From Burkholderiales bacterium (GTDB lineage: Bacteria; Pseudomonadota; Gammaproteobacteria; Burkholderiales; Casimicrobiaceae), in contig JAEUPL010000005.1 in NCBI GenBank assembly GCA_016790165.1, positions 62,001-126,000 of the forward strand: DNA of 64,000 nucleotides. Direction: 5' to 3'. The notes below the pieces were generated by a model. It worked only from the letters and a program-made list of their open reading frames with translations. It had not been told where the DNA came from and did not search any database. Numbering within the stretch: the stretch's first letter is position 1; each line of letters begins with the position of its first letter. The translations under genes were made by a program, and so were the position numbers. Shown here piece after piece: positions 4,570 to 53,857 of this stretch.

Positions 4570-4697
4570 CGATACGGCTTTTCAGCAAAAGCGACTGTCG
4601 CACGGTCGTTAGCGGGCGAAAAGTAGTCCAGTCGACTTGTACGCAAATACGGCCGCAACGACCGCCCGGCGGTCGTTGGCGCTGCAAAGCCGTATCG
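4570..4697. repeat. GGCTTTT/AGTCGACT intergenic repeat, copy A
   Basis: This 128-bp element is bounded by a perfect 12-bp inverted repeat, CGATACGGCTTT (4570-4581) and AAAGCCGTATCG (4686-4697). The palindrome AGTCGACT lies near the centre at 4630-4637, and GGTCGTT occurs twice inside. It fills the gap between the convergent genes gcvP and DUF1415. Four related elements occur elsewhere in the window with nearly the same length. Confidence 0.8.
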
Positions 4698-4709
4698 ACG
4701 ACGTGACGG

Positions 4710-5273
4710 TCAGTCCGCGGGCGCGTCCACCTTGAGCGCCGCCCACCCGTCGTGTCCGAGTTTTTCCAGCGTTTCGATGTTGCGCTCGGCAATCTCCATC
4801 TCGTCGGGGAAGGCGGCGACCGCGCGCTCGACGCTGTCCTCGCGCAGCAGATGCAATGTCGGGTACGGTGCGCGATTGGTGTAGTTGCTGATGTCGTCGG
4901 CGTCGGTGCCGGCGAACTGGAACTTCGGATGAAAGCTCGCCACCTGCAGGATGCCGTCGAGCTCAAGCTCATCGACGAGCCCGTCGGCCACGTCGATGAA
5001 ATCGTTGAAGTCCAGAAAGTCCGCGAACGCGTTCGGCAGGATCAGCAGCGTCGTGTCGACCGCCTCTGCGCTGGCCTCGGCGAGCCATTCCAGTTCACGG
5101 TGCAATTCGTCTGCGACGGCTTCCGGTGTCGTCGCGGCACTCACCACATAGCGAATCTGGTTCTTGCTGAACACCGCCTTGGCAAACGGGCACAGATTGA
5201 GCCCGATCACGGCAAGCTCAATCCAGCGTTTGGTGGCGACGATTTCAGGGCGTTCGGTGTCAGTCGATGTCAT
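4710..5273 (-). CDS. DUF1415 family protein
   Basis: This 187-residue soluble protein matches my memory of the DUF1415 family: KRWIELAVIGLNLCPFAK at the N-terminus with its conserved cysteine, then LLILPNAF, FHPKFQFAG, and NRAPYPTLHLLREDSV. No biochemical function is known to me. The ATG at 5273 is chosen over a longer reading because the family begins near this point and the upstream residues are low in conservation. It is divergent from amn, with 94 bp between the start codons. Confidence 0.85.
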   Translation of the reverse strand: MTSTDTERPEIVATKRWIELAVIGLNLCPFAKAVFSKNQIRYVVSAATTPEAVADELHRELEWLAEASAEAVDTTLLILPNAFADFLDFNDFIDVADGLVDELELDGILQVASFHPKFQFAGTDADDISNYTNRAPYPTLHLLREDSVERAVAAFPDEMEIAERNIETLEKLGHDGWAALKVDAPAD

Positions 5274-5367
5274 GCGTCGGGGCCGCTGCTGCGCAACGCG
5301 CAGTCGCGGAAATATCGGGAATAGACGAAATCTATCGCGAACGGGTGATTGCTGTGCAAAATACGTG

Positions 5368-6900
5368 ATGGACAAGAACAAACATAATTCCACCCACACT
5401 GCTGCTGCCACCCATGCAGCGCCCTTTCTCGCTCCGCTCCAGTTTGACGACGCCGCATTGGCGCTCGCTCAGGTGCGGCGAATCTACGACGCGTCGATTG
5501 CGCACCTGCGCAACAGTATGCACCGCTTCGTCGCGGGTGAAGAGGTTGGCAATCACGTGCGCGCCTGCTACCCCTTCGTGCGCGTGCACACACGCACCAG
5601 CGCGCGCGCCGACTCGCGGCTCTCGTACGGCTTCGTGCACGGCCCCGGTGTCTACGAGACCACGCTGACACGGCCCGATCTGTACAGCGCCTACTACCTG
5701 GAACAGTTTCGCCTGCTGCTGAAGAACCACGGCACCACGATCGAGGTCGGCACCAGCGCGCAGCCCATTCCGGTGCACTTCTCGTTCGCCGAAAACGATC
5801 ACGTCGAAGGCAACCTGAGCGCTGAGCGCCGGCAACTGATGCGCGACGTGTTCGACCTGCCCGATCTCTCGGTCATGGACGACGGCATCGCCAACGGCAC
5901 CTACGAACCGCCGCATGGCGCGCACCAGCCGCTGTCGCTGTTCACCGGGCCGCGCGTCGACTACTCGCTGCACCGCCTGCGCCACTACACCGGCACGCTG
6001 CCCGAGTGGTTCCAGAACTTCGTGCTGTTCACCAACTACCAGTTCTATATCGACGAATTCGTCCGCATCGGCCATGAGTTGATGAACGACCCGAACAGCG
6101 AATACATCGCCTTCGTCGAGCCGGGCAATGTGGTCACGCGTCGCAAAGGACTGCCGGCTGAAGCCATTGATGCACTGGGCGCCCCACCGCCACGCCTGCC
6201 GCAAATGCCGGGTTATCACCTGCTGCGCGCCGATCACTCCGGCATCACCATGGTGAACATCGGTGTCGGCCCGGCGAACGCCAAGACCATCACCGATCAC
6301 ATTGCCGTGCTGCGCCCGCATGCATGGCTCATGCTCGGCCATTGCGCCGGTCTGCGCAACACGCAGGCGCTGGGCGACTACGTGCTCGCCCATGGCTACG
6401 TGCGCGAGGACCACGTGCTCGATGAGGAGCTGCCGCTGTGGGTGCCGATTCCGGCGCTGGCTGAAGTGCAGGTGGCGCTGGAGACGGCCGTCGCTGACGT
6501 GACCAGGCTCAAGGGCTACGAATTAAAACGCGTGCTGCGCACGGGCACAGTCGCCAGCACCGACAATCGCAACTGGGAGCTGCTGCCTTCGCGTGGCGCC
6601 GCCACCTCGCCCGAGTTGCGTTTCTCGCAGAGCCGCGCGATCGCACTGGACATGGAGAGCGCTACTATCGCCGCCAACGGCTTCCGCTTCCGTGTCCCCT
6701 ACGGCACGCTGCTTTGCGTCAGCGACAAGCCACTGCACGGCGAAATCAAACTGCCAGGCATGGCCAATCACTTTTACCGTGAGCGTGTGAACCAGCACTT
6801 GCTGATCGGCATCCGCGCAATCGAGCTGATGCGGGAGGCGGGTGCGCATCACCTGCACAGCCGCAAGCTGCGGAGCTTCGCGGAGGTGGCGTTTCAGTAA
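5368..6900 (+). CDS. amn: AMP nucleosidase
   Basis: The enzyme hydrolyses AMP to adenine and ribose 5-phosphate and so lowers the adenylate pool. At 510 residues it is slightly longer than E. coli Amn (484) owing to an N-terminal tail. The Amn-specific N-terminal domain is followed by a nucleoside-phosphorylase-like domain carrying NIGVGPANAKTITDHIAVL, HCAGLRNTQALGDYVLAH and REDHVLDEELP, all strongly conserved. The ATG at 5368 is the first plausible start after the divergent DUF1415 gene; upstream in-frame codons run into that gene. Confidence 0.95.
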   Translation: MDKNKHNSTHTAAATHAAPFLAPLQFDDAALALAQVRRIYDASIAHLRNSMHRFVAGEEVGNHVRACYPFVRVHTRTSARADSRLSYGFVHGPGVYETTLTRPDLYSAYYLEQFRLLLKNHGTTIEVGTSAQPIPVHFSFAENDHVEGNLSAERRQLMRDVFDLPDLSVMDDGIANGTYEPPHGAHQPLSLFTGPRVDYSLHRLRHYTGTLPEWFQNFVLFTNYQFYIDEFVRIGHELMNDPNSEYIAFVEPGNVVTRRKGLPAEAIDALGAPPPRLPQMPGYHLLRADHSGITMVNIGVGPANAKTITDHIAVLRPHAWLMLGHCAGLRNTQALGDYVLAHGYVREDHVLDEELPLWVPIPALAEVQVALETAVADVTRLKGYELKRVLRTGTVASTDNRNWELLPSRGAATSPELRFSQSRAIALDMESATIAANGFRFRVPYGTLLCVSDKPLHGEIKLPGMANHFYRERVNQHLLIGIRAIELMREAGAHHLHSRKLRSFAEVAFQ

Positions 6901-7057
6901 CGTTCACGGGCGGCGCGCAGTCATCTGCTTGCCCTCCGGGGTCCGCGCGATCGCAACGGCCGGTCACCTTTGTTCCGACGGGTGCACCTCGCGCAGCAGT
7001 CTCCACGTTGCTGCACCGTGCGAAGCGCGGCAAAAGAACCGCGGACGCTCGCCATAC

Positions 7058-53002: not shown

Positions 53003-53047
53003 GCACACTGCGCGAAGGGCGAACGCTGCGTCCCATAGAATCGTTTC

Positions 53048-53311
53048 ATGGCGCTGCTGATTACCGATGACTGCATCAATTGCGACGTGTGCGAGCCAGA
53101 GTGCCCGAACGACGCGATTTCGCTGGGTGCGGAAATCTACGAAATCGACCCGGCCAAATGCACCGAGTGCGTGGGCCATTTCGACACGCCGCAGTGTCGC
53201 GAGGTGTGCCCCGTGGATTGCATTCCCGTGAATCCGGCGTATGTGGAATCACCCGAGCAGTTGCGGCTGAAGTACGTCGCGCTGATGAAACAAAAAGGAA
53301 TCACCGTATGA
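53048..53311 (+). CDS. YfhL family 4Fe-4S dicluster ferredoxin
   Basis: This 87-residue ferredoxin has two cluster motifs, [12 protein letters not shown] and [18 protein letters not shown], with the loop insertion typical of the YfhL/Allochromatium-type 2[4Fe-4S] ferredoxins. It is a low-potential electron carrier. It lies near coaD, as is common in betaproteobacteria, but is separated from it here by the DUF5916 gene. Its stop overlaps the next start as ATGA. Confidence 0.95.
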
Positions 53312-53715
53312 AAAGCAAACCGATGCTCACCCTCGATGACGTAAAAAAAATCGCCGCCGGGGCGGAAGCGGAAGCCGTGAAAAACGGCTGGGCGGTGACG
53401 ATTTCCGTCGTCGACGACGGTGGTCATTTGCTGTGGTTGCAGCGCCTCGATGGGGCGGCGCCGGTGTCGGCGTGGATCGGGCCGCAGAAGGCAGTGACCG
53501 CCGCGATTGGCCGCCGCGAATCGGCGGTGTACGAGAAGATGGTGAACGAGGGACGCGTTTCGTTCCTGGGCGTGGACCCGGTGACACCGCTCGAAGGTGG
53601 CGTGCCCATCGTGGTGGACGGCGTGATCGTGGGCGCAGTGGGCGTCTCGGGCGTGAAGTCCAGTGAGGATGTGCAGATCGCGAAGGCGGGGATTGCGGCG
53701 CTGGCGCTTGCGTAG
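53308..53715 (+). CDS. GlcG/HbpS family protein (heme-binding-like)
   Basis: This 135-residue protein matches the GlcG/HbpS/PduO C-terminal fold: [54 protein letters not shown] and the C-terminal [17 protein letters not shown]. Some relatives bind heme or cobalamin. AAAAGGAA precedes the ATG, which overlaps the ferredoxin stop, suggesting coupling with that electron carrier. Confidence 0.88.
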
Positions 53716-53735
53716 CGGGTTGCGTTGGCAGCGGC

Positions 53736-53857
53736 ATTGGCTTTTTCGCGGCAGCGGCCAGCCGTTGGTCGTTTGCGCTGCAAAATTGACGAAGTCGACT
53801 TGCGCTGAAAACGGGCTTTCCCCGCCGTATCGCGGTCGTTGCGACAGAAAAGCCAAT
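53736..53857. repeat. GGCTTTT/AGTCGACT intergenic repeat, copy E
   Basis: This 122-bp element has perfect 10-bp ends ATTGGCTTTT (53736-53745) and AAAAGCCAAT (53848-53857). AGTCGACT lies at 53793-53800, the same offset as in copies C and D, and GGTCGTT occurs twice. It fills the gap between the GlcG-like and MAPEG genes and ends 26 bp before the MAPEG ATG. Confidence 0.8.

Follow-up and report, generated by a model that had tools for sequence, protein, structure and literature searches.

The 64,000-bp stretch analysed here, referred to as the window (positions 62,001 to 126,000 of contig JAEUPL010000005.1, assembly GCA_016790165.1, from a Burkholderiales bacterium of the family Casimicrobiaceae), carries between its genes five copies of a long palindromic repeat, an element of 120-124 bp that is symmetric about a 4-bp centre. 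All five lie where a first-pass annotation of this DNA had put them, and the central AGTCGACT that it described is exact in four copies and degenerate (AGTCGATA, at 14431) in the fifth. A sequence-only profile, R1, built in both orientations from 36 copies of the genome chosen by pattern, recovers exactly these five elements at 58-78 bits on the best strand, with Elements 4 and 5 ending at 49297 and 53856, one base short of the ends listed below, and finds nothing further in the window at E values up to 1. Convergent, divergent and tandem gene settings are all represented among the five, as annotated. The copies, together with the parts of the best one, are as follows (window positions; G005 is a single-contig relative).

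4572..4695, no strand: Element 1, full length, in the convergent gap between gcvP (1693-4548, plus strand) and a minus-strand gene ending near 4710
14373..14496, no strand: Element 2, with the degenerate centre AGTCGATA, between a convergent gene pair
28072..28193, no strand: Element 3, the best window copy (77.6 bits), between tandem minus-strand genes; the orthologous G005 gap is occupied
28076..28081, plus strand: left end box GCTTTT of Element 3
28089..28109, no strand: left inner dyad of Element 3 (family consensus ACGACCG-N-CGGTCGT)
28129..28136, no strand: central palindrome AGTCGACT of Element 3, with TCGA at the dyad
28156..28176, no strand: right inner dyad of Element 3
28184..28189, minus strand: right end box of Element 3 (AAAAGC on the plus strand)
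49177..49298, no strand: Element 4, left arm diverged, between a divergent gene pair; the matching G005 gap is without an element
53736..53857, no strand: Element 5, between tandem plus-strand genes; the orthologous G005 gap is occupied

The significance of the family is in the architecture of the element and not in AGTCGACT alone, which with one mismatch allowed occurs 16 times in the window against 17.9 expected, i.e. not above chance. The spaced pattern GCTTTT-N(35-60)-AGTCGACT-N(35-65)-AAAAGC is matched 45 times in the window's own genome, G000 (44 places, two matches overlapping), and 0 times by its reversed control. Profile R1 finds 34 full-length and two partial elements in 464 kb of G000, one per ~13 kb, corresponding to ~290 elements per 3.76 Mb of genome. 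The latter figure is an extrapolation from the 464-kb sample, since the whole-genome R1 search scores at most 150 candidates; on both strands it gives at least 150 matches, the lowest among the best 150 reaching 57.8 bits. With 36 elements in 400 kb of G005 as well (partials counted), the profile scan of the genome and its relatives that had been proposed thus yields many further copies. The family had not been recognised in the first-pass annotation, and Rfam gives no match in the window at the gathering score; in nine small loci, eight of them with an element, four sub-threshold Rfam matches all fall off the elements. The literature surveyed, mostly titles and the openings of abstracts, holds nothing recognised as this element. 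The interpretation as a real multi-copy intergenic family without an Rfam match therefore stands, whereas its other part, selection for paired structure, does not, for the reasons given below.

Read outward from the dyad, each half-element has AAGTC and, beyond a variable spacer, an A/T tract (at 10-15 bp), then a GC-rich box, the inner dyad (ACGACCG...CGGTCGT in the window species), a second variable spacer, and the end box YRGCTTTT with two A/T positions before it. Spacing is nearly fixed: in G000 the end box lies 46-48 bp from the centre in 94 of 97 scorable half-elements and 57 bp from it in the other three, about one helical turn farther, with none between. The loci L002, L033 and L034 have one arm 10 bp longer, two with AAAATCAC in the added turn and the third with AATATTC. 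Half of the full-length copies that R1 recovers from the 464 kb (17 of 34) have an exact AGTCGACT. The information content is ~41 bits per half-element, or ~82 bits for the whole if the halves are independent, where 13.7 bits are needed for 290 sites, and no alignment column outside position -3 of the elements is conserved. One copy of the relative G018 (L109:7456) departs from the family consensus in its inner stem, which is long, perfect and unrelated in sequence (ACGTAGATC...GATCTACGT).

Among the genomes searched the element is confined to a single genus. Of 64 genomes of the family, 11 have the strict pattern, all of them in the window's genus (11 of its 17 members); of 399 genomes of the order (158 genera) three have it, again in the same genus only. 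Profile R2 extends the count to 15 of the 17 genus genomes at E values up to 1e-4, and under stricter filters it matches none of 47 genomes from six other genera of the family. Pattern-bearing records among the matches listed are titled as Betaproteobacteria, Burkholderiales, Proteobacteria or Pseudomonadota metagenome-assembled genomes, no exact pattern match occurs in viral contigs, and one window copy has no plasmid match and another no phage match. The boxes differ by lineage. The inner dyad is ACGACC/GGTCGT in G000 and G012, and GCC-N-GGGCT in G005, G013, G015 and G018, types that hold at shared sites too. Four members, G006, G007, G009 and G010, give weak R2 matches (9, 3, 15 and 11 at E 1e-4; 69, 25, 68 and 84 at E 0.01), and in 14 of their copies, chosen by eye from 19 distinct places and aligned, the end boxes and a GCC...GGGC dyad are kept and the centre consensus is TTTTCGAAAA instead of AAGTCGACTT. 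Two further loci, L250 and L251, also look element-like.

Such a palindrome might act as a structured RNA, i.e. a bidirectional intrinsic terminator, a leader or a small RNA. The elements sit just past stop codons, as would suit this explanation, and three of the five window copies fold better than shuffled sequences (z -7.4, -3.6 and -3.7); the other two fold like shuffles. It had also been claimed that flank bases vary but stay paired within a copy as if selected for structure, and by eye this is seen in four of the five window copies, whereas 68 copies show only the level given by column composition. In these 68 full ungapped copies the mirrored pairs in the outer 16 columns all stay within expectation (largest z 0.82), and in 90 half-elements pairing at the dyad register of the inner dyad shows no excess. 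When arms are swapped between half-elements, the longest stem is on average as long as before in each of the eight groups (z -0.5 to 1.2); in G000 its mean is 4.17 for true and 4.14 for swapped arms. A scan of all column pairs in 36 copies gives scattered z values up to 3.5, and the 70 highest-ranking pairs all lie off the mirrored register. Covariation noticed by eye in copies of G006, G009 and G010 was rejected, shuffled arms pairing equally. The selection for paired structure thus fails in the outer flanks, the inner arms and the dyad register alike, and on these three tests RNA or cruciform structure was rejected; the arms pair and some copies fold because the consensus is palindromic.

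An intrinsic terminator, sought as a GC hairpin with a T-run immediately behind it under a scoring scheme of our own, reaches a strong score at 0 of 38 element-side gene ends vs 8% of 175 others, although the median score is higher at the element-side ends (7.3 vs 2.7). The consensus by eye has no U-run directly after a hairpin, its central palindrome is without a loop, and Rfam offers no match. With compensatory changes absent, the RNA explanation appears very improbable, and we conclude that the conserved feature is the double-stranded sequence and not its pairing.

By our own gene calls all 36 elements in the 464 kb of G000 are strictly intergenic, as had been claimed for the window copies, and so are all 32 classifiable elements of G005, four edge elements being left out. 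Convergent junctions are enriched, holding 14 of 36 elements in G000 as compared with 71 of 406 junctions (p 0.002) and 13 of 32 elements in G005 as compared with 55 of 339 junctions (p 0.0004); tandem settings are as common as convergent ones. Among convergent gaps of at least 120 bp an element is present in 14 of 25 (G000) and 13 of 24 (G005). The elements lie close to stop codons: in 65 tandem elements the upstream stop is a median 24 bp away, and in 63 convergent ones the stops a median 28 bp; the corresponding medians for starts are 53 bp (downstream start of the tandem elements) and 101 bp (starts beside 24 divergent ones) (152 elements of several species, many loci having been fetched by pattern). 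The variance of element spacing is below that of random junctions on contig C6 (p 0.028), and not on C7 (p 0.106).

Half-elements are found in addition to full ones. Those of G005 at L266:9430, L274:6084, L276:17735 and L280:7716 end just past the centre in GTCGAT or the like, so that monomers of the palindrome exist there. All five half-elements scored in tandem settings are turned towards the stop (p 0.03; from 12 candidates, with four convergent, one divergent and two without context excluded), a polarity that is not relied on because full tandem elements show no better half. On C6, outside the window, two partial elements 2.4 kb apart (L188:8804-8856 and L188:11193-11274) run into a near-identical promoter-like stretch, in which GCAATTATCCC is followed by TTGAC and a -10-like box; a small open frame, Cas2-like by eye only, comes after the first.

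Positions are frequently shared between species. The tally covers all target gaps except those that overlap the match through which a locus was retrieved, with distinct gaps counted by hand; other rows of orthologues are biased toward shared sites, their loci having been fetched for carrying an element. The 27 distinct orthologous gaps so obtained comprise 13 with a full element, one with a half and 13 with none, compared with 36 elements in 406 junctions (~9%) overall (p ~1e-7). All 40 comparisons give 14 full, one half and 25 none, many of these negatives being the single site 14373, and restriction to element-rich genomes gives 13 full and one half in 23 gaps. The gaps that share an element lie between species whose DNA is 66-87% identical. 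For Element 1 a counterpart adjoins the same minus-strand gene in G012, G015, G016, G017 and G019; the matching gap is without an element in G007 and G011, and none is present in the stretches taken from G006, G008, G010, G013, G014 and G020. The site of Element 2 is occupied in G018, G011 and G017; the matching gap is empty in G005, G006, G008, G009, G012, G013 and G019, and no element was detected in the stretches from G007, G010, G015 and G016. Orthologous copies are no closer than others (identity 0.611 in 30 pairs vs 0.601 in 600 non-orthologous draws), and the free positions are thus saturated. The boxes of shared-site copies nevertheless match the consensus of their own species; gene conversion would be expected to homogenise the spacers too, which is not seen.

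These data bear on a second explanation, that the elements are an old population of small mobile elements, inverted doublets like REPINs or MITEs, which copy rarely and whose consensus is set by a transposase acting in trans. The inverted-doublet plan, the high copy number, the intergenic location, the half-elements, the lineage-specific consensus and the 13 of 27 orthologous gaps without an element would all agree with it. So would the few pairs of copies that are up to 0.79 identical, above the maxima of 0.71-0.75 in column-independent null sets (four sets, built from only 21 copies). On the other hand 0.79 is the best gapped identity among 82 distinct G000 copies (of ~290 estimated), the flanks there are unrelated, and near-identical copies are absent; there are thus no recent duplicates and perhaps a few old ones. 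Ungapped copies of the same length reach 0.69 in G000, 0.67 in G018 (260 pairs) and 0.56 in G005 (42 pairs). Gaps without an element exist, with spacers too diverged to define an insertion junction. Also against mobility are the gaps held in common at 66-87% DNA identity, the lack of pattern matches in viral contigs, and the single copies without plasmid or phage matches.

No matching transposase was found in a search for PF01797, the only transposase family looked for. PF01797 tracks the elements poorly: it is missing from G020 (98% complete), which has 26 R2 matches on two strands or ~13 elements, and present three times in G008, which has no R2 match. Most other genus members carry both, so that there is some overlap. 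As many diverged copies may be present in G006, G007, G009 and G010, which do have PF01797, the evidence against a link by presence comes from G020 and G008 only. The two Y1 genes of G000 (C7:97470 and C12:1372) have no element nearer than 3.8 kb. A RAYT origin, tried as a candidate, is not supported, given the G020 and G008 mismatch and Y1 genes that no elements flank.

Caulobacter CIR are long intergenic inverted repeats of alphaproteobacteria with a short, GANTC-centred palindromic site; the present elements resemble them as long intergenic inverted repeats, and their AAGTCGACTT consensus is without GANTC. REPINs and BIMEs resemble the elements in plan (a palindromic unit doubled in inverted orientation), in number (hundreds of copies), in extragenic location and in species-specific sequence, and differ in the compensatory hairpin changes and near-identical copies missing here, in gaps here often shared, and in the lack of a clear Y1 link. 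REPINs are described in the available text of PMC3116915 as inverted REP doublets in which compensatory changes are common; this doublet plan (also PMC8049555, available text) is shared, compensation is absent here and the RAYT link is weak. ERIC and other MITE-type repeats, such as the 127-bp RU-1 (PMC2759123, available text), are similar in length, intergenic location and MITE-like palindrome, but the present elements have no near-identical copies, their conservation peaks at the centre and ends, and no transposase (PF01797 only being searched) or target duplication was identified. On balance the mobile explanation appears unlikely.

An A/T profile is common to all seven species groups (correlation 0.50-0.95). 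In every group it peaks near 4, 13, 24, 43, 53 and 60 bp from the dyad; since the copies were picked by their centre and end boxes, the peaks at these two features are in part a product of that choice. At several peak positions A and T are used about equally, and power at periods of 9.5-11.5 bp exceeds that of permuted columns in 7 of 7 groups (p <=0.002, by a liberal test, since A/T runs cluster). The profile suggests that the DNA may be bent or wrapped.

A third explanation is that the elements are built-in strong DNA gyrase sites, at which gyrase would cut the central TCGA with a 4-bp stagger, wrap ~60 bp on either side and remove positive supercoils at the ends of transcription. In the available text of PMC6379681 the E. 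coli gyrase motif spans 130 bp, is symmetric about the cut and has phased flanking G/C, and gyrase enrichment is described for BIME-2 and for the regions downstream of strongly transcribed operons; a footprint of similar size and symmetry is given there and in the available text of a preprint (PMC12393610). The elements resemble the E. coli motif and strong gyrase sites (SGS) in general (Topo-Seq motif, Mu SGS, BIME-2) in a length of ~120-130 bp, symmetry about a 4-bp centre, periodic A/T peaks and location at gene ends. Length and symmetry fit the ~130-bp gyrase region, with the phasing drawn from the liberal test and a best period of 7.75 bp in 4 of 7 groups. The elements differ in having strong sequence-specific boxes that vary by lineage, in their restriction to one genus and in their best period (9.75 bp here and 7.75 bp in four groups, as against 10.75 bp reported for E. 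coli). Gyrase is universal, its motif is described as degenerate as against ~82 bits for the element if the halves are independent, and GyrA of the genus members has ordinary scores, with 858-861 amino acids (aa) in the four element-bearing members and one element-free member extracted (the longest open reading frame was off in 7 of 29 loci, one of 30 loci was left out, and the GyrA of G000 was scored only). Universality, ordinary GyrA and a degenerate motif argue against gyrase alone, which we hold to be quite improbable; a specialised gyrase was likewise rejected, GyrA looking ordinary in the genus. Membership of neither the REPIN/BIME nor the gyrase-site family is claimed for the elements.

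We tentatively favour, at a probability of roughly 0.38, that the elements are candidate sites, maintained by the host, of a two-fold symmetric DNA-binding complex at the ends of transcription units. Selected protein-binding sites fit the data better than RNA structure and somewhat better than a mobile element. Sites that are sequence-specific, symmetric, nearly fixed in spacing, often shared and lineage-specific point to a complex whose specificity evolves with the genus, and their position at gene ends suggests a boundary role. About 300 chromosomal sites per genome would be bound by a genus-specific, fast-evolving symmetric complex, and one such complex, or several cooperating dimers, might fill the end boxes, the inner dyads and the central palindrome along one face of the helix, and would probably bend the DNA, or wrap it, over ~60 bp in each direction. 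The sites would mark the downstream ends of transcription units, likely as bidirectional boundaries that stop or insulate transcription, or take up supercoiling, between converging or successive genes. Whether they form a genus-specific chromosome-boundary system in which ~300 sites shift their boxes together as the putative protein evolves, many keeping their gene ends, is more doubtful.

Several observations weigh against the binding-site interpretation. The complex is a putative one, and location at gene ends may instead come from selection against insertions elsewhere. In the 65 tandem elements conservation is no higher in the half next to the upstream stop than in the other (p 0.79). The genus members G008 and G014 are without an R2 match, sharing is incomplete (13 of 27 gaps without a detectable element), and the 14373 site is occupied in only 3 of 14 genus genomes examined. 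Some pairs of copies, at up to 0.79 gapped identity, exceed the null maxima of 0.71-0.75, a hint of old copying, and the best A/T period is 7.75 bp and not ~10 bp in 4 of 7 groups, with 9.5-9.75 bp in the other three.

Elsewhere in the window, the open frames at 7968-8963 (minus strand, 331 aa) and 50546-53002 (plus strand, 818 aa), two of ten window frames scanned, have no NCBIfam match at E 0.001. The frame at 42766-44280 (minus strand) matches the Ada regulator and 3-methyladenine glycosylase 2 models in one protein, below both curated cut-offs.

Dispersed palindromic repeats of bacteria are usually read as mobile elements or as RNA structures. Here, in hundreds of 120-bp copies, the saturated free positions, the lack of compensation, the genomic places often kept across species and the lineage-specific boxes point to protein sites under selection, unusually long and rich in information. 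If a binding protein were found, the genomes of this genus would offer a natural series of protein-site pairs that evolve together, and would allow a direct test of what is placed between convergent transcription units in bacteria.

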